A stretch of 64,000 bases of DNA, from assembly GCA_013076295.1 (NCBI GenBank), contig RQOL01000466.1, forward strand, positions 1,612,001 to 1,676,000, written 5' to 3'. Shown here one piece after another: positions 1,423-27,000 of this stretch; the first letter of the stretch is position 1; each line of letters starts with the position of its first letter. This DNA is from Sanderia malayensis. Its lineage: Eukaryota > Cnidaria > Scyphozoa > Semaeostomeae > Pelagiidae. Below the pieces are notes generated by a model. It was not told the origin of the DNA and made no database searches. It saw nothing but the letters and a program-made list of their open reading frames with translations. The translations under genes were made by a program, and so were the position numbers.

Positions 1423-4400
1423 TGGCAAGCAAGAAGCGAAAGTGCAAAGACGTTTACACAGCTGCATGGTGGGAATACCCTCCGTATGTTTACCAAACTG
1501 ACACCAACCAAGTCAGTGGGATATTCCCCAAGTTAATGAGGCTGATGGCACAGGGCTGCTGTCAGTCAAAAGTTAATGTCTCGTTTGCATACGTCTTGGC
1601 GACTCGAAACGAGGCAGTAGAGCAGGTGGTCAATGGGTCAGCGGACTTTGTTCTTCCACTCATTTTGAAGCCTGGAAAGACGAAGTTTTTGAGCTTTCCT
1701 TTTGTGCCATTCGGTTAGTAAGTTTGAAAATCCAAATCAAATAATTATTTTTTATCTTCAAATTTCTTCTACGATCAACATTTTAGCTTGATACATGATT
1801 GTATAAAGGCTCAAGTAAACTGTTGCCAGCTCACTCATTAGCAAGCAGTGCAAGTAATATCCAAGCACGCACATGTACGACTCCACAATATCATCCAGGA
1901 ATTCTCTGCATAAATATGTAATGATTATAGGCATAATCATACTTTAACTGTATTTTCACGTTCACCTAGTTTCTTTCCTGATTTTATCTCCGGTTTTCTT
2001 TTTCAGTTGATTCACCTGGCGTTGCTTTTTATACTGCTTCATCTATGTCTGCTGGTGATTCGTTGGTTAAAGTCCTCCTTGTCTCGTTCCCAATCCTCGT
2101 ATATTCACTCATTATGTCATTGATCGTCGGCACATTGTTCTGGATTTTTGTAAGTAGACACCTTAACATGCAATAGTGGACAGAAATCCTTCAGACACTT
2201 CTAAGAAGGCTATCAACCTGTAAAAGTCTTTTTGTGGGCATTAGTCAAGCGCCCTTTCCCTCTAAAACAATGTTGTTCTCTCGTGGTTCCCATGACAATG
2301 GAGTTTGTCATTGTTTTATATGATTTTATCTAGAGAACAAGAATTTGTCATTATTTTATATTTAGACAACATGTTTGGGGGAGGAGGGGGTGAAGGATGC
2401 TTGCAAATTTGCAATTGTCCAAGGAAGTTGTCTAGTATTATAGTACTCTTTCCTATAGTTGCATTATGTAAATGCTCCTCTGTGTAATATACCATTGCTC
2501 CTCCGTAAGATAAGCCAAGCCTTGGCTCCTGCTCAATGGTAAAGCTTTAAATATGTAGCACATGGACTTTAGGGTTAATGTCATTCCGAGTTTCCCTTGC
2601 TTCTCTTACAGAAGTAGCTGAATATGATTTGCAGTTTAGTTTAAGCTGTAGTTGGATACTATTAACTGTTTTTAGGAATATCAAGACGATCGAGAGTTTG
2701 GATTAAGTATTCTGAATAAACTTCAGGACGGAGTTTGGTGGGCCTTTGTATCAATGACCACTGTCGGGTGAGTTAATCAATGCTTTTCGTTTTCTGGTTT
2801 AGAGAAGCACTTATTTTACAATTAATTCTCATTTTTCCTCAACACCATGTTTCTATTTTCATAGCTATGGCGATGTCTATCCGAAAACAAGATGCGGCCA
2901 AGCATTGGCAGTTGTCTGGATTTCATTTGGAATAGCAATTGTAGCTTTGTTCGTTGCTAATGTCAGCTCATTTCTAACCACTTCTTGCTTATCCCACACG
3001 ACCGAAATACGCGGAAGCAAGGTAGGAGGATATGCAGACTTTTCACCGAAGTTTGAGCTCCTAAGTTGTGGTCGAATTGAATTGCTTCTGGTTTGCACTG
3101 TATGGCAATCTTCCTGCACCAAATATACCAGGTTACAGACTCTTCATGCATCCTATTTTGTTTTGATTTTTATGTTTTTTGTGTATATGTAGATTGCTGT
3201 TATAAGTGGCAGTCAGGAACACAGCTTAGCAGTTAGAGGTAGTGCCATACCTGTTGGTAAGTGTAAACATCTGATTGGAAGCTTGATTAACAAGTGCAAT
3301 TGACATTTACTATATCTTGACTGCCTGTTATTTCGAACATTCGCTTTCTCGAACGCTTTTCCATTTTCCCTCGCTTTGGTTAGTATAGTTGGGACATCTT
3401 TTATTTTGAACAGTTGCTATCTTAAACAAATTTTAAGTTCCCTCAAGTTCGAGAAAGTTCGTGATAGCCTACCCAACTGCACTTGCTATTTTGCACTATA
3501 ATATCGTACTGGCTTTTACATGCATTTCGTATATTTGATATACTATAAAAAGCCAAAGCTATAATCCAAGCAAGTTAGCATGTATTTATTCCATTTATAA
3601 ACAAACGTGTTATTCATATATTTGCTTTTATATTCGCCTGCAGTGTCCCATAAATGTATTGCCTTAATGTTTTATATTGCCTTGTAGAACACAGCAATGT
3701 ATATGACTTGGCGAATTCAATGAGAAAAGGTGATGCAGTCGGAGCAATGCTGGACAGTTACGTTGCTGGATATTATCAGAATATTTTTAGGGAATTTCGA
3801 CTGAACGATCTTCGAGAAGACCTATTTTCATACGGCGTGGTTCTCAGCCCGAGCATTCTATCTCAAGAAAGATGCTTCAGGGATTTCATAACATCAAACC
3901 AACACATTATCTTTCAGTACATATCTGAAAACATCAAACCCTTAAAGGTATGTTCGAGTTATTGACTTTTCATTAACGCTATGCGTGAGTATTAAGCATA
4001 AGCACGACCAAGCAGATTTCTGCAAGTTTTAAGCCCAAAATTCGCGGAGCTTTAGTCCAAGATCATATACAGTCTACTCTCGATAAGTGGAACCCCGGGT
4101 AAATGGAACTTTTGTTTAGTGGAACCCATTTCTCCGGTCCCTTGGATTTGCATTAACAAACCTATAATTCACATAAGTGGAACATTCGATAAGTGGAACC
4201 ATTTTTTTCGGTCCCGTGTAGGTTCCACTTATCAAGAGTACACTGTAGCTTCTTTTTGAATTGATCACTGTGCGTAATTTTGGTTCATAGAATTAACGAA
4301 GAGCCTAAAAACAGCTTTCTGTATTCACCTTGTCCCCATCTCGAGTGACATTATCAATCCCTTGTGATTCTCTTGCCAGTATACTGTAACGTAAATAGAA

Positions 4401-5041
4401 CTCTCCATACTGATGCATTGCTTTTTGTGTGCAGAAAACTAGAGAGAAAAGTACAGCGGAGGAAATGTCATCGCAATTTCTTCATTTTGGTCAATTGAAA
4501 ACATATGTCCCGGTCGTTATTATACTTGGCATAAGCTGCCTTCTGTTTGGGCTGTGTTATTTTATACAGATGGCCAAAGAGCTGAAAAAAAGGAACAGAA
4601 AGCACAAGAGCTGTAAGTAGTCGAGGTTAAAGATTTGTCGTGTCTCTCATCTGTTTCTCTATCGCCTGTCTCTCTCTCTTTATTTGTTTCCATCTTGTCT
4701 GTCTTCTTGGGTCTTCTCACTTAACTCAGTTTTTCTTTACAATTGCACTCTTTTCTGTCTTTATGATATCACACTATTCTTTTGTTCATCGTGACAGTTT
4801 CCAATGTCAAATCTGCACATTCCATTGCATTGCAGTTCGTAAGAAAATTTGCAAAGATACCGAAGAAACACTGAAAGGCCTGGAACAGACCCATCTCCGC
4901 GAACTGACCAATTGCCTTCAAAGTATTTACAAGGAGTCTGTCATCCTTCAAGATTCCTGCAACGTGGTTTTAAACACAGCAGAGCAACAGGCATTTTCAG
5001 TGTTCAATGAAAGATTCAGTGAACGAGAGACTACTGTTTGA
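1423..5041 (+). CDS. glutamate-receptor-like channel with K+ selectivity filter (GluR0-type), 5' partial
   Basis: Predicted ligand-gated potassium channel of the plasma membrane. Exons: 1423-1713, 2007-2149, 2676-2767, 2865-3021, 3193-3256, 3688-3947, 4435-4612, 4836-5041 (stop 5039-5041), all phase-consistent, giving 462 visible residues. Order: S1 half of a periplasmic-binding/iGluR ligand domain (1-97), membrane helix M1 (about 116-144), pore loop with TTVGYGD (172-178), helix M2 (about 188-213) ending in an ANVSSFLT stretch like the iGluR M3 motif, S2 half (about 225-335), helix M3 (360-379), and a basic then coiled-coil-like cytoplasmic tail. An intron splits the filter glycine codon. 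No N-terminal ATD is seen. Bacterial GluR0 and rotifer AvGluR1 are the established precedents for a K+ filter in this fold. The usual carboxylate-binding Arg of S1 appears to be Lys82 and the S2 Glu appears to be Asp271, so the ligand is uncertain. The start codon lies upstream and is unresolved. Confidence 0.85.
4070..4245. mobile_element. MITE with pogo/Tigger-like ends, TA target duplication
   Basis: A 176-bp element in the channel gene intron before exon 4435-4612. It starts CAGTCTACTC and ends in the near-perfect reverse complement GAGTACACTG, with terminal inverted repeats of about 25 bp rich in GATAAGTGGAAC. It is flanked by TA at 4068-4069 and 4246-4247. Internal repeats of the GTGGAAC motif are present and there is no coding capacity. 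CAG-type ends plus TA duplication are typical of pogo/Tigger-derived MITEs. Confidence 0.8.
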
Positions 5042-5579: not shown

Positions 5580-8500
5580 ATGAATACCAAGTTAAAAAAG
5601 CTTCATTCTGTATCCACAAGACTAGGGAGAACAGATGTCGAACTCTTAAACACAGGTAAAAGTATTATATTTCCTTTTTTATTGTAAACATCTTAGTTAT
5701 TTGTATTTCAAAGGATTTGCCTTTAACGTTATTTTATAGTGCATGTAATTCACTGCACCAAACCACGTGAGAGCTTGTCAGCCTCAACAAGGCTTGCTTT
5801 CTGGCCTGCCACTGCCAAGATAGGCAAAGTAAAATCCCAAAATATCTTCTTTCAGATACCCAAGTAATGAATGGTGTAATGAAGTACAAAATCAAAACAT
5901 TGATATGATGTTATCTACTTTAGGAAGCTACATAGAAATTAAACAGTAGGGTCCCATTATCAATCAAATTCACAAGTTTGTATTTTTCTTTAGATGGTAG
6001 TAAAACAGAAAGTATTGATGAGATCTTTGGAAGGAAAAAAGGTGAGAAAACTTTAGTATTCATTGTCTCTTTGTCAATTTCAATTGAGATGAGGAGAGGA
6101 GTAAATTATTAATCCTAAAAAGAAAACATGTCTGTCTGTAAAGATTACTTTTAGCACAAAGATAATGTCAAGCAATTTGTTCTTTTTTAAGGCAAAGACA
6201 AACATTTGAAGACGAAGGGAAGAAAAGAGCTCAGAAAAGAAAAGAGGCTTCTCATTAAAGCAAAACAGAATAAATCATGGATGGAAAAGCATGTAAGAAA
6301 TGAGAACATGTCTTTAAGTCAAGCCTTAACATGCTGTTTCCAAGATTTACATGTGCAAAGTTCTACTTGGCATGCTTATCTTACAATCATAGGGTATGCA
6401 AACACAGGAGCTAAACAAAGAACAAAAGGATAAAAAGAAAAGGAAGAAAAAGAAAAAGAAGAAAGTTCTTGAAAGTCCAAAGGTTTGTGTAAATTTGTTG
6501 TAATACTATTTCAATGTTTGTTTTATTGGAAAAATATTGTCTTTCTCAATCTATACTTTCCTTTCTTTTTGCCCACAGGAAGAGCTTGAGACTGAGGCCA
6601 CCGAAGCAGCAAATGATGAAGATGACAAGATGATTAAACGGATGGAAAAGAAACTGGGCTTAAATAAAAAGAAGAAACTGCCGTCATCATTTAATGATGA
6701 TGGATTAGGATGTATCCTTCTCAGGGTCTCTTTAGTATGATGTAATCTGTTTGATTTAACATAGTTTCGTGCATTGATGTTAAGTTACTGTAAGGAAATT
6801 ATTGGTTTTGTAGGCTAAATTTGACAATAGGCAAGGATGGCTGAATGTTTAGGGAGGTGCAAGGAGAGGAAGGACCATGGTCACACAGCCTTGGACTATT
6901 TAGTTTTATAAACCTTCAATGTTTGTGCTTATAAGCCAATGTGTGCAAATTTGCCAATCAATTAATCAATCAATCATAGGCTCTATGTTTTTCGTACAAA
7001 TCCTGCTGTGTTGTTTAAGCTAGAAGCAACAGCATCATTCTATGAGTAACAGTTTTTCTCTGTGATAAGTTAAGTTTTATTTTCTTTGACTGTGATTTGC
7101 TTAAGATCTTCTTGAACTCTGTGAGCCAATGGAGAATGCCAGTGCGTACATGATGGGTGGAGAAGATCTGGAAAGTGAGGAGGAACAGCTGTCTGATGAA
7201 GAACCTGAATTAAGGCCATCAAAGAGAATGAAGATGATGAAAAATGAGAAAGGTAGGGAAAAAGAAGAGAAATCCAAGAAGGAAGTCAAATCTTCAAATG
7301 ACCTGGCAATGATTTCTGAGGAAGATGAAGACTCTATTCATAGTGGAATGTTTGATGAGTCAGAAGAAGATTACATGTCAAAGGAAGATGATGATGATGA
7401 AGAATATGAGGAAGAAAATGAAGATGAACAAGAAGAACAGGATTGCAATGACAAAGAAGATGATCACAGAAAAATAGAAGTTAAAGAGCAGGAGAAACAA
7501 CCTTTGAACATAAACATTAAATCAGAAAGCCCAGCCAAGCAGAGAGACAATGTAGAAAAAACAAAATATGTACCACCTCATTTGCGAAAATCTGCAGAGG
7601 AAAATTCGGAAGAAACGCAAAGATTAGAGCGTTTGAGAAAGCAATTGAAGGGGCTTATTAACAGGTAATTATTCATTGTAAGCTGTGGTTTGCATAAGGA
7701 TATAACAGAACTAAGATAGCACTGTTTACTAAGACTCTTAAATCATGACTGAAGGTGTTTGAATATGGTTTTGTGCGGGAAAATTTCTACCTGAAACCAC
7801 TTGTTGTTCACATTTGCAGGCTTAGTGAAGCTAATCTGAGCAGTATTGCGCAGGAAGTTGAAGAGGTTTACTTGAAAAACAGCAGAAATGGTAGATTTAT
7901 TTTTTCTCTCACGCACAGTAGCGTGAATATAGCTTTCTTAATCTCTTCTTTGAAAACTGATTATATGGCAGCTACTCGGAATTAAATGCGATGTGAGCAT
8001 TCAAAACTGCAGACGAAATTTTCTAAGATAAGGATTTTAATGCATATGTTTTAATAGTTTCAACTTTTGTTTATTTTCTGTGATTTTCATACCCCGTATC
8101 TCCTTTATTTAGATTGTAACAATATATTACTTAAACTCATACTTGATGCATGTGTGATGCCGACCCACATGCCAGAAAAGATGCTATTGGAGCATATGAT
8201 GCTTGTTGCTATTCTTCATGCTCATATCGGCAGTGAAATTGGTATGATCTCCAGACTATTTTCTGCAAAATACGTTTGATTAAAGTTTTGCATTCCATTT
8301 GTTTTCTAAGCGGCATGTGATGAAAACTTTGCGTGTCATTTGATGCTTGAGAAATGCACTATTTCTTGTATCGTGCTAAGCTATTTAGTATGATTGTTAG
8401 AAATGCTGCGTGTCTGCTTGCAGTGATAATGCATTTTGCATATCTGATGCTGCCATTAAGAGTTGTATGACTAACTAATACAGCAATCTTTGAACCCTTT

Positions 8501-16882: not shown

Positions 16883-17414
16883 TTAATTATTCACTCCTAC
16901 CGCAGAGAATCGCAAGAACAAACCATTGCGATATGCTTTGAGTCATCATAATCATCATCATAATAGTCATCATAATCATAATTTACAACATAGTCATCTT
17001 CATCATCATCATAAATTACAACATAATTGTTAGGTAATAATACGTAAATATATCAATGATGTTATACATAAATTAAAAACAGTTAATTACGATATTGTGG
17101 GCGGTGTAGGAAACGCATTTGCAAGGAACGAAGTGCGAGCGGAGGGGCAGGGACGCTGTCCCTGACTCGGAATTTACGGACGCTGTCCGTTTTGTTTTGA
17201 CATATTTTGCGATGGGGTACGCGAGGCCCCTGGCTTTTTATAAGGTACGCGAGGCCTTGCCATTAATTTGTACGGGGTACGCGAGGCCCCGATTCGAAAC
17301 CATAACGAGGTACGCGAGGCCTCGTTGAGCCTAATACTTTACTGATTTGTATCAGTATAGGTTATTGATGTGCTATTCCGAGTTTTTGTGATATGAAGTG
17401 TTTGCACTTTTGCC
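16883..17414 (-). repeat. B1 split direct repeat
   Basis: Copy of B2, joined to A2 on its left. On its right it truncates the recombinase remnant. Confidence 0.85.
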
Positions 17415-17743
17415 CACAAATTGCGTCCAGCGATTGCCCATAAAAACGAGTATAGAGAAATGCGTGAAATTAGATGTGCAATTGTATCCAATTGTGCGGA
17501 GCAAATTATGGCCCATATCATTTGGTTATCGAGATCACGTGCAGTGTCCAGCTGAAGCAGCCCGGAAATGTGAAAGTGATCAAAGAATATATATTGTCGA
17601 CAGAAATCTTGCAAGTTGCAAGTAAAAACGTGTTGTAAATGAAAGTCTCTCACTGCGGCCAGAAACATTGTTATTGTGTCATGTGAGACAGTCGGGGCCA
17701 TGTGAGTAGCAAAATAACATAGAGTAATTCCGTCGGCGGACAA
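17415..17743 (-). pseudogene. remnant of Ngaro-type tyrosine recombinase, N-terminal part
   Basis: The minus-strand frame reads LCYFATHMA and then a DTITMFLAAVRDFHLQH segment, which resembles the SAM-like N-terminal core-binding part of YR-retrotransposon recombinases. Sequence beyond this drifts and the catalytic Arg/His/Tyr domain is not recognisable before B1. Non-functional. Confidence 0.6.
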
Positions 17744-18013
17744 AATACCCTAAAATCCATGAGCTTTGAACGCTTAGCAAAAGTAAGGAACTGCTTGACC
17801 CCCGTGCGGTGTGAGTCTTGTGTATTTTGGGCGAGTGAAAAACTTGAAAATGGTGTAACAAAGGCGTCAAAGGTGCGAAATTTCCTCCGGGAGTTGTTGA
17901 GGCAGGGGGTCGGCCCATGGCGCCAATGGTCGGAAACAATCGACCTGGAAACGTGAGAGAGAATCAGCTATTTCGTTGTTTGCTCCCGGGATGTGGTTAG
18001 CAAAAAATAGAAA

Positions 18014-18770
18014 TTATATTGCATAGTGAGAAGCGTTAGGTGATGGACCAGAGCCATCACTTTGGGGAAGGGGGACGTTTTGAGGTAATGATATAAACAA
18101 CAGACTCGTTATTGCATTAAAATAAATCCTTTTCGTAAACCAGCGTGGTGCACAAATAAGGCAGGCCATAACAATAGCATACAACTCTAGCCACGCGATG
18201 GAAATGCCTGTTTCTTGAAGGCTGACCTTACAAATTTTGTCAAACGGGGAATCAGGATTTTTAGGTTCGATAATCAAGAAATCGTCTAGGAAGTGTGTCA
18301 CGTAGGAAATTACACACTTATGTTCCAGTATCCAGTGAATCGCGGTAGCATATTGATTGAAGAGAAAAGGACCGCCGCGTAGGCCAATAAGCAAGAATTT
18401 TTCGAAATAGAAACCCCCGTTCCAGTTCATACCCAATAATTCCCAGTCGTTTGGATGGACTTGAATTAGACGAAAGGCAGATTCGATGTCTGTTTTGGCC
18501 ATAAATGAACCAAGCCCGAGACGTTGAGGCTCTGCAATTGCTTCATCGATTATTACATATTTTAAAGAATGCGAGTCCTTGTCAAGGAAAGAATTGATCG
18601 AATTCGGATAAGACAAATGAAACATTGTGCGGAATTTTTCGGAACAGTTTGCCGGAACTACCCCCAGGGGGGAAACTTGCAGGTTTGGAAACGGCGGCTC
18701 TGAAAAAGGGGCCCACTGGGCGCTCTAAGGAGACCTCTTTGTTAAGATTTTCGGTAATTTTGGCCGGGTG
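18014..18770 (-). pseudogene. broken reverse transcriptase / RNase H of the Ngaro-type element
   Basis: The minus frame 18625-18014 shows RT blocks: FMAKTDIESAFRLIQVHP, then a GLRGGPFLFNQ block and the catalytic HFLDDFL (the YxDD position, in the LDD form usual for DIRS-like RTs). It then jumps to an RNase H-like ELYAIVMACL segment, which implies an internal deletion. The RT N-terminus continues in another frame at about 18770-18626 (SLERPVGPFF, then SGKLFRKIPHNVSF), so at least one frameshift separates the parts. Confidence 0.8.
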
Positions 18771-18859
18771 AAGTGAAGCAGTGGGTGGATTCGGAGAACG
18801 CCTGGGTATTCTAGGGCTGTGGTCGCTAATTGAAACACCCTCCCGTAGTCCGGTACACA

Positions 18860-18918
18860 GGTCAGAAGCGAAAAACAAAAAAACAAAAAAACAAAAAAAA
18901 AAACAAAAAAAAAACAAT
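18860..18918 (+). repeat. A-rich simple sequence inside the Ngaro-type element
   Basis: A run of A tracts separated by single C bases, reading as T-rich on the element's sense strand. It disrupts the gag-RT region and lies between the gag zinc segment and the RT. Confidence 0.8.
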
Positions 18919-18980
18919 CAGGATGGGTGTCTAAAGCGAGTTCTAGATGAACGACATCAATTCTACTCAACGGTTTTAAA

Positions 18981-19712
18981 CTACGAGATAACGAAGTAGT
19001 AATGTTTTCCAGAGCCGGGGTTGATGACGAGGGTGCATCTGTTTCCAGCATGCTTTCCCCCACAGCCCGGTCTGTTGCATACATGTTTAAATCGGCAGGT
19101 AGCCTCTTTACAAAAGCGTTCGATATTAAACCTGCGGCATACGTCGTCCCTTTTTGCCGCAAGGGATTTACTGTTAAAGGGTTCTTTGTTAAAAATACAA
19201 TCCTCTTGATCTTGTGGGCCGGCTGTAAACGTCATCAACCAGAATTGTTGGTCGATCCTTCCCCAGTACATCGTGCTTAACAATCTTCAAGTCGTTATCA
19301 TCCCCCATTCAAATGGAAAACTTGTGGTGCCGGGGGAGATAATTTCTGGAGGTTCTGAGTGACTAATTTTTGATAATTCAAAAAACTCACCGCTCTGGAT
19401 TTGTCTGACGAGGCTGTTGGAAACCTCCGGCGAGAAGGCATTGATGGTGTACGTGGCCGGCATCATCGGTGGGGCTGAACTGCTTGGAAGATGCAACGTT
19501 TCGAGTGAAACTGGCTGCGGCGTATTGGCTGGTCTATCCGTCTGTGGAGGCTTGTTGGCGGTCATCAGTTCGCGGACGATGGTAGCCAGAGAGCCTTCTA
19601 TTGCCGTGTTGGCTTCGGTTGCAACACTGGGCCATGAACTAGCAGTAGTCGCCGCTGTAGAAGGTCGCGTACTTCTCCGTATGCCTTGTTTAATTGACTT
19701 GCTTTTAGCCAT
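18981..19712 (-). pseudogene. gag-like ORF1 remnant of the Ngaro-type element
   Basis: An ATG at 19712 opens a 141-codon Ser/Thr/Pro-rich frame (to 19287) ending in SPEVSNSLVRQIQSGEF, then a frame change. The frame at 19283-18981 carries a zinc-binding pattern: CRRFN, then FCKEATCRFKHVC, then PGCGGKHAGNRC. This is the CCCH plus CxxC arrangement typical of the C-terminus of DIRS/Ngaro gag proteins. The stop between the two parts makes it a pseudogene. Confidence 0.7.
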
Positions 19713-19821
19713 CTCACCTAGCTTTCGTTCAAATTAAATTTTGTTTCCTTGATTTGCTTGGCAACTATGTATATGTTGCTTTGTTTGTAAATTGTTGCCC
19801 TTTGAGGGCTTTGCATTGTCT

Positions 19822-24000: not shown

Positions 24001-27000
24001 GAGCGACACTTGGAAACAATGGTGTAGCAGATGGCCTAAATGCTGGCCAGGCATTTGGATTGGAGCTGTTCTTCACATTCATTTTGATCCTGACAGTCTG
24101 CGCTGTTACAGACCCTGGAAAGAAAGTCGAGCCATATGGAACAACATTGGCTATTGGAATATCCATTCTCGTCTGCCATGTTTGTTTGGTGAGTGTTTAC
24201 ATTGTTGTATTCGATATGCAGTGAAAATTATCACACTTTTGCATTGTCGTGAAATGAAGTATAAATCCACTGCTGCGCCGTAATTTGCTCTGGAACTCGG
24301 GCGGAGCTCTGTTTTAGGTTCTCCTCAGCATCTCAAACTGACGTATTTTTGTCCAACCGCAGCACCCCAGTTTAGGTTGCACAAATTTCAACATTTTCGT
24401 CAACCGAAAGCAATTGATGATAAAATCGAAAATCCCAAAAAATATCGCAGAAAAATGACAAATAAAAATTTACTCTTCTAATCAACTATATATCTCCTTT
24501 AAGAAACTTGAATTATAACATTTCTACAATATCATTTATCCTCCTTTTTCGTGTGATCAGATATATTTAAATTGAACATTTATATATGTATTTGAGTATA
24601 AAACCCCAAACAAACAAGAAATGATAACATTAATATATTAATATATGAAAGATCTTTTCTATTAAGAAATATTTAATCTGTTCATCAGACATTTAACTTG
24701 TCCATGAAACTCTTTACAAATTTCATGCGGATCTTTCAAAATGGCGGAATCGCTGAGAATTCCCACAAAGATCTTATGATTGTAGCTGGTAATTGAAAAT
24801 GACATTCCCATGTTATCCTTCTGCGGAGGCCAAAAAGTGAATGTTTCCAGATCGTGTCCGGCCACTCTTATCATATTCTGTGGCCCGGGCACATTGGAAA
24901 ACACTCCTGTGGTCTTCTCGCAGACGAACCTGAAGATTGGTGTCATAATACGAGCCGGCATGACTGTGATAAGCAGGTCCATGGTCGGACCAATTGAAAA
25001 TGGTTCACCGGAGAACTTTAATTCATCCATTCGGGCTTTAGCCTCGTAAAGTTGGGCAAGAGGATCGCTAATTCCAGTGGGTAACCCCAGTTGTAGAATT
25101 GCAAAACGGTTCTCGAATTCCACCGCATCTTCGTCGATGTCTTTCCGCAGGTCAACAGGAAGAGAGACTTTCACTTCTTGCGGTGGCAATAAATTTCGCT
25201 CGTTGAAAAACTCTCTGATAGTGGCGGCCAAACAGCTGACAACTACATCATTCACCGTGGTTTTCGTTGCCGTTTTGATTCGCTTGACGACAGAGAAATC
25301 CAATGGTTCAGACCACGTGATCCTCTTAGAGCCACTGAGCGGTTTGCCGTGCAATAGCGTGTCATCAGCTTTGCGTGCAAGCATCTTGATCAGGAATATT
25401 GGGCTCAGGAACATGCCTTTGGCGATCATGAACAGCCTGTCATGCTCTGAATACTTGTTCAGCGGTACGGGCGTGGCCTTGTTGTCTGGCAACTGGCTGG
25501 TCATGAAATTCACCAACGACACCCCATCCGCCATACTGTGGTGCATGCGAAACATAGCTGCCGTCTTCGTGACGTCACCTTCAACCCATGGAATCACAAT
25601 GAACTCCCATTGGGACTTGCCCTTTTCGAACGGCCTTGAGCACAACAGTGAGAGGATGTGTCGCAACGCGTCCTTCGAGGTGACTGTGTCTGGCCATTTT
25701 GTCACATGATCCGTGATATTGAAATCACTCTCTTCCGTCCAAAAGTGATTAAAATAGCCGGCAGTCACGTGTTTCTTCACTCTTCGATAAGGGCTCTTCC
25801 CTTTCCCTTTTTTGTCTTCACATTTTCTATCCACCATTGTAGTGAAGAATTTCTCTCTCATGTCTTCAACATCCACATCGCCATCGAAAACAACGAGAGT
25901 GTTAATAATACCCAGATTCGTGGGCTTATCTTGCATCCACAATGCATCGCCGCTCGATACTGCTTCAACATCATACAGGGCTTCGTAGATTTTCCTTTCA
26001 ATCGTCTTCGCAACAAAGAACAAAAACACAAATGGAGAAATCGGGATAATTATATACAGGATCATGATCAACCATGCAAACATACAGAAAAACAGCTGAA
26101 ATAGCATTGTAAAGCCTGCAGTAATCCTCGATATAATTCCATAATTTATTCTATAATCTTTCAAGCTTTTCCCAGGCATTTTCTTTTTGCTGCTTTCGGT
26201 TATTTTTCCTGTTTTATTTTGGATGTCTTCCTCGTTGGCATTATCGTCTCTGCTCTTCTCCATGATAATGTGAACAAATATGTGCAATCGTGGTGAAGTA
26301 ACAGCAAATAATCTCACTCACTGACACACTTCCTCGTTGTCATCTATCTGCTTTCATCTGTCTACCCACGCGAAACGGTGAAATTGAAAGAAGAAAAGTG
26401 ATCACTGCACTGACTGACCATTTCGCACGACTAAAATAATAAACTCTGCAATTGGACTTTGACCCGGATCTCAACTTGTTTACAGTGCAAAGATCAAACA
26501 CGCGCGACGCTTCATTAATCGCTTTACGCGTCACGTGACTAAAACAACAATGTAAATACAGTCAACTCTGTCTTATTCCATCACCCTGGCTCTGGCACCC
26601 CGGGGAAGCGTGAAAATGTTCGAATAACAACAAGTTCGAATTTCGCTCGAATCAAATAGAGTTCGAATTACACGAGTTCGAACTATGCAGACTTGACTGT
26701 ACATTGTTAGTAAACATTCATACCAGCGCAGCGCATGACACTGAGGTACATACAACAGAGTAATTCAACGCATGCAGCAAGAAAGAGAACTGTTTCTTTT
26801 TACCACACCAAACATTTTATTTTTTCTGCCATTTCCGAGAAAAAATGCGTCTTTTTCACTCATTAGTATAACCAAGCCAATTGAAGTTTGAAATAATCTT
26901 GTTTTTGTTTATTATTTGTTTACATAATTGTTGTCGAAAAATTTTTTAATGTCGAATTATAACTTGGCTTGCAAGACAACACAGGATAAATAAGATCTTT

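Follow-up and report, generated by a model that had tools for sequence, protein, structure and literature searches.

An ionotropic glutamate receptor layout with a potassium-channel filter in a gene of the jellyfish Sanderia malayensis and its cnidarian relatives

Animal ionotropic glutamate receptors (iGluRs) are known as excitatory non-selective cation channels. GluR0 (Slr1257 of Synechocystis) and the bacterial GluR0-like channels, placed in Group 1 by Ger et al. (2010; PMC2950845), carry a K+ filter within a glutamate receptor clamshell, a combination that these authors, as far as they could determine, knew only from bacteria. Glutamate and hydrophobic amino acids open AvGluR1 from the rotifer Adineta vaga (PMC12226733), the one animal exception with a K+ filter in the papers cited here. 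The available parts of PMC12332018 and PMC12226733 describe both GluR0 and AvGluR1 as K+-filter receptors, as the initial annotation of the locus studied here had stated. That locus lies in a stretch of 64,000 nt from the scyphozoan Sanderia malayensis (GCA_013076295.1, contig RQOL01000466.1, here C405:1612001-1676000 of an assembly of 184.0 Mb), which we call the window. The annotation had pointed to an iGluR-fold gene with a potassium filter, and this observation is confirmed. Our analysis favours, with reasonable though not high confidence, a protein of iGluR design that would contribute one subunit to a tetrameric, ligand-gated channel selective for K+, in a family that probably does not bind a standard amino acid in the usual manner. 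A cnidarian family of this kind was not reported in the open-access literature that we searched, and the available main text of a survey of metazoan glutamate receptors (PMC6307864) contains no mention of potassium, GYG or GluR0.

Eight exons in the window, with GT/AG splice sites, join into one open frame of 462 residues that ends with the TGA at 5039-5041, and the alternative frames of the same splice contain 25 and 19 stops; the proposal of one phase-consistent gene thus stands. The filter motif TTVGYGD lies exactly where it had been placed, at residues 172-178 (codons 2757-2767 plus 2865-2874), and the join of 2767 to 2865 is supported by the relatives P0002 and P0003, whose alignments cross the 2767^2865 junction without a gap. 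The coding sequence of P0002 runs unbroken along a contig just 1,726 bases long, which we therefore take for a cDNA. In our reading the gene would have nine coding exons, the first of them upstream of the window. The exon proposed for this role, at -820 to -748 in window coordinates (C405:1611180-1611252), encodes the putative signal peptide MVVKKFIAAKFIAIAVFLLVNTSF, ends in phase 1 at TTTG^gtaagt and joins position 1423 in phase to give a protein of 487 residues. It is likely the true first exon; full-length relatives such as P0002 also show a hydrophobic leader followed directly by S1, and P0002-P0004 start alike. The EukProt protein P0001 is identical to the window protein at 462/462 residues. 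Its N-terminus corresponds to a separate histone-fold gene (PF00808), presumably CHRAC-like, at about -3942 to -2915 (C405 about 1608058-1609085), so the public gene model is a fusion.

The encoded protein has the two-lobed S1/S2 clamshell of the iGluR superfamily, of periplasmic-binding type and split by the pore. Hydropathy peaks (144-162, 213-231 and 386-404 of the 487-residue protein) and model helices give the order M1, re-entrant loop, M3, S2 and M4, in a predicted membrane orientation. The order S1-M1-pore-M2-S2-M3-tail of the initial annotation agrees with this apart from the names, its M2 and M3 being the M3 and M4 of iGluR numbering. The sequence ANVSSFLT of M3 presumably stands in place of the SYTANLAAF motif. 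Canonical-type iGluRs of the same assembly share the layout of clamshell, pore and M3, whereas their pores read, for example, SMLQQGPDYTP (L004) or TLLQQGAELTP (L005). The window gene, by its sequence, has TTVGYGD instead of a Q/R/N-site, cation-non-selective pore, and it also departs from canonical receptors in having no amino-terminal LIVBP-like domain, the signal-peptide exon joining S1 directly. Two structure models fold the clamshell confidently. When the whole-family profile was compared with PDB, only K+-channel pores appeared among the best 60 of 365 matches, so that kinship of the ligand domain had to be read from a pore-free profile, in which GluR0 is the closest ligand core (17 PDB matches to E 10). 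AvGluR1 is not among these 17 matches, an absence that is no evidence, and its ligand domain does appear as a structure in the structural comparison, which covers Foldseek's own matches.

In the mechanism that we propose, the signal peptide would place the clamshell outside the cell, and the pore would be formed by M1, a re-entrant loop entering from the cytoplasmic side with the TTVGYGD filter, and M3, followed by M4 and a helical tail. Four subunits would assemble, by homology; a ligand would close the clamshell, pull on M3 and open the pore, and K+ leaving a resting cell would hyperpolarise it. The ligand-gated, inhibitory K+ channel suggested earlier is in this way upheld in part: the iGluR layout with a K+ filter is there, while selectivity, gating and sign are what we infer from it.

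Is the filter more than a chance resemblance? A homologue search returned 89 proteins and a profile search 61, of which we assign 57 rows to the family by coverage and Pfam content (P0001-P0051 and P0090-P0095, P0001 being the window gene). All 57 contain TTVGYGD, which makes the motif more than chance. Every family row with a species name is cnidarian (Nematostella, Actinia, Actinostola, Stylophora, Pocillopora, Porites, Acropora, Dendronephthya, Xenia, Hydra, Hydractinia, Clytia and Rhopilema), and P0003 is presumably from Aurelia, judging by its gene name. Members are found in the genetically tractable Nematostella (P0012) and Hydra (P0042). Both searches reach relatives of similar length that share short exact words, so this distribution does not amount to absence outside Cnidaria. 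By Pfam content and coverage, the remaining matches are bacterial GluR0-like proteins (P0052-P0057), pore-only K+ channels and one unplaced row (P0058). A separate search for homologues of bacterial GluR0 (3,369 matches, 120 listed) gave no eukaryote among the few names shown. In an alignment of 48 family rows the filter, an S2 aspartate (D359) and an S2 glycine (G386) are invariant, and paired S1 cysteines nearly so. Most members have no extra domains; before S1, P0007 carries EGF repeats and P0044 CUB and Ig domains.

The S. malayensis genome contains many further copies. A query derived from the window gave 59 exon matches in the assembly and PF07885 gave 122, both sets including Kv and K2P genes. 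At 24 loci we read distinct exons that start with YGD after AG plus one base, that is, after a phase-2 intron in the first filter glycine; the pattern required the YGD start, and copies with a changed filter or another intron site would escape it. Among 14 further stretches, with exons near the profile position or PF07885 matches, 11 have such an exon and 3 do not. The donor side, TTV-GG^gt, was read for 17 family loci, the window gene included; an eighteenth match, L053, was discarded as an uninterrupted Kv pore, and the Kv pores read in this genome are uninterrupted at the filter site. Six YGD-start pore exons, all read, stand in tandem at C829:5227265-5263314, and C859:760847-795566 holds four PF07885 matches at the same profile position, one of them read; C859 also has three further near-copies. 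Both arrays suggest local expansion of the family. With 24 distinct pore exons in one assembly and an array of six, the window protein might be an obligate partner that needs a paralogue to function, like insect ionotropic receptors (IRs). We regard this as a possibility well short of even chances; it overlaps the other readings, and its probability is not exclusive of theirs.

Where does the pore come from? Scored with a family profile from which the two S. malayensis rows had been left out, the post-filter exon of the window gene reaches 60.1 bits and the 24 exons 31.9-103.1, compared with at most 26.5 for 13 Kv rows (9 distinct) and at most 22.4 for 10 K2P rows, which places the window exon outside both of these classes. 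With a bacterial GluR0 profile the 24 exons score 28.2-68.4 bits and the Kv and K2P controls at most 23.5. L067 prefers the bacterial profile (42.8 versus 31.9), and the lower-scoring exons L064-L070, L072 and L074 are placed by the pore exon alone. An origin from a Kv or K2P pore was rejected as the simplest reading, given the far higher scores with the family and GluR0 profiles. The K2P first-pore exons (L078-L087) start AG^GN before the Tyr codon, in phase 1, at 10/10 loci (acceptor side), one base from the phase-2 site of the family in the same glycine codon; since the positions differ, they were not used as evidence of kinship.

A pore tree of 96 rows and 106 columns, without canonical iGluR and K2P pores, groups the family and GluR0 pores apart from Kv (84/88, just short of a star), which speaks for a pore of GluR0 type rather than one borrowed from Kv. 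The family itself does not form one clean side of this tree (2 changes; one side in 42% of bootstrap trees), and bacterial rows fall inside it with low support. Next to join the family and GluR0 are four rows from other kinds of K+ channel (P0058, P0089, P0097 and P0114; 97/85). The full tree, with 17 rows from the family, 18 from bacteria and 7 from canonical receptors over 347 columns, leaves out L004, read in a wrong frame (end branch 4.34), and L005 (27% filled); an earlier tree that included the wrong-frame L004 did not place the bacteria on one side. It shows three separate sides, the family at 100/99, the bacteria at 92/94 (not starred) and canonical receptors at 99/98, so that the family is not nested among canonical iGluRs. 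Horizontal transfer from a sampled bacterium is not supported by this tree, in which the 18 bacterial rows lie on one side. The tree is unrooted and carries a long-branch warning, and it does not decide between a kept GluR0-like ancestor and a later gain; a root placed among the bacteria would make the family the sister group of canonical iGluRs. Bacterial GluR0-like homologues end after S2 (P0055 has 355 residues), whereas the family adds a predicted M4 and a helical tail.

Which ligand would such a channel bind? In GluR0 and in AMPA and NMDA receptor structures, an S1 arginine holds the carboxylate of the ligand and an S2 aspartate its amino group. We aligned the ligand loop, which is shorter in the family than in bacteria, over 27 family and 17 bacterial GluR0 rows. 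The aspartate is present in every row of both sets, whereas the arginine, found in 17/17 bacterial rows, occurs in none of the 27 family rows, which departs from canonical iGluRs as well. A conserved aspartate with a lost arginine implies that the family as a whole probably does not bind a standard amino acid in the usual manner. In most members the site would, on the simplest reading, recognise an amine and do without the customary anchor for a carboxylate; the agonist may be an amine or some other cue. In the subgroup of the window gene a lysine could replace the arginine, and there an amino-acid ligand anchored by that lysine is a live alternative.

Taken further, that alternative would make the protein a eukaryotic equivalent of GluR0, in which glutamate or other alpha-amino acids gate a K+-selective channel and lysine or another residue replaces the arginine. 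In its favour are GluR0, the nearest ligand core in the profile search and one of the nearest in the model comparison, the aspartate kept in 27/27 rows, and AvGluR1, an animal K+-filter receptor that does use amino acids according to the available text of PMC12226733. Lysine occupies the arginine column in 5/27 rows (the window gene P0001, P0002, P0003, P0004 and P0091), and K or R lies within one column of it in 15/27. Nevertheless, 22/27 rows have a non-basic residue in that column, an acid in ten of them (D 6, E 4), and the family loop is the shorter one; we rate this equivalence as rather unlikely. Alternatively, the clamshell may be vestigial, the protein serving as a background K+ conductance or a structural subunit with no ligand gating. 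The missing carboxylate arginine would fit. However, a dead site is expected to drift, and the aspartate invariant in 48 rows and the confidently folded clamshell argue against this explanation, which we find improbable.

Several points weigh against the ligand-gated K+ channel with a non-standard agonist that we prefer. A K+-type filter sequence alone is no proof of K+ selectivity. With the arginine gone, the ligand site may no longer work, and the basic residues at or next to its column leave an amino-acid ligand possible; the lysine of the window gene in particular takes weight from our reading and adds it to the amino-acid one. Taken by itself, the clamshell has thin sequence support: the window protein scores at the Lig_chan cut-off (30.8 bits), P0001 falls slightly short of it (30.5), and S1 (residues 17-90) matches PF00497 SBP_bac_3 below threshold (E 0.0047), with a match in 1/48 members. 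By structure, GluR0 and bacterial binding proteins come out level, within one Z unit, and the predicted M4 rests on hydropathy and a model helix. Finally, an artefact that misjoins ligand-binding exons from one gene with a K+-channel pore exon from another can be dismissed as extremely improbable, even though the fused EukProt model shows that gene models here can be chimeric, because the same order recurs in relatives from many cnidarians, the two closest ones checked align over the junctions, P0002 runs uninterrupted on its short contig, and 24 loci split the same filter codon.

Table 1. Coding features of the iGluR-type gene, in window positions.
Feature	Position	Strand	Basis
Coding exon 2: mature N-terminus and most of S1	1423..1713	+	phase 1 in and out; GT/AG, open frame; P0002/P0003 alignment
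Coding exon 3: end of S1 and M1	2007..2149	+	GT/AG, frame; hydropathy peak, predicted helix
Coding exon 4: pore helix GVWWAFVSM and TTVG to base 2 of the first filter glycine codon	2676..2767	+	GT/AG, frame; donor GG^gt
First part of TTVGYGD (ACC ACT GTC GG)	2757..2767	+	open frame; motif in 57/57 family rows
Coding exon 5: filter remainder (C TAT GGC GAT, 2865-2874), M3 (LFVANVSSFLT), start of S2	2865..3021	+	frame; 60.1 bits, family profile
Coding exon 6: S2, GSQEH ligand-loop region	3193..3256	+	frame; alignment
Coding exon 7: most of S2, with invariant aspartate (LDSYVAGYY)	3688..3947	+	frame; alignment
Coding exon 8: linker and predicted M4 (PVVIILGISCLLFGLCYFI)	4435..4612	+	hydropathy 2.51; helix 444-486 of model mc9b341656680 (P0001 numbering)
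Coding exon 9: predicted cytoplasmic helical tail and stop	4836..5041	+	frame; model helix 494-542; P0002, P0003 alignment

Upstream on the same strand, at C405:1599110-1605670 (L003:7110 to L002 about 3670), lies a tandem paralogue whose S1 is preceded by EGF-like exons and whose pore reads TTVG^YGD; it resembles the EGF-bearing P0007, and 4/5 upstream open frames tested match EGF families. The PF00808 gene sits between this paralogue and the window gene. The next gene downstream, at 5580-7668 of the window, has lysine- and acid-rich exons and the motif YVPPHLRK and resembles NOM1-type nucleolar proteins; its 187-residue frame at 7105-7665 has no Pfam match. On the minus strand, 17339-19733 contains reverse-transcriptase-like text (FLDDFLII, ESAFRLIQVHPND) that looks by eye like a retroelement remnant, and 24662-26317 an open frame of 551 residues with an HHSMADG motif, similar to wax ester synthase/diacylglycerol acyltransferases.

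Insect IRs are, like the cnidarian family, an expanded iGluR-fold family in which canonical ligand residues have been lost. They are not known to have a K+ filter. They are protostome, and none were found in Cnidaria according to the available text of PMC2924276. A wider proposal, which we hold tentatively and consider doubtful as a whole, is that Cnidaria possess a large, partly tandem family of K+ channels on the iGluR fold, gated mainly by amines or other non-amino-acid cues, that would act as fast hyperpolarising chemoreceptors, an inhibitory counterpart of IRs, and would descend from a GluR0-like receptor that persisted beside the excitatory iGluRs. Cnidaria have chloride-channel receptors, as described in the available text of PMC13335744, and a phylum-wide family, two dozen of whose pore exons were read in a single jellyfish, would provide another form of fast inhibition beside them. 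It would also make the survival of the GluR0 K+ filter into animals testable, and its members may quiet cells in response to a chemical cue.
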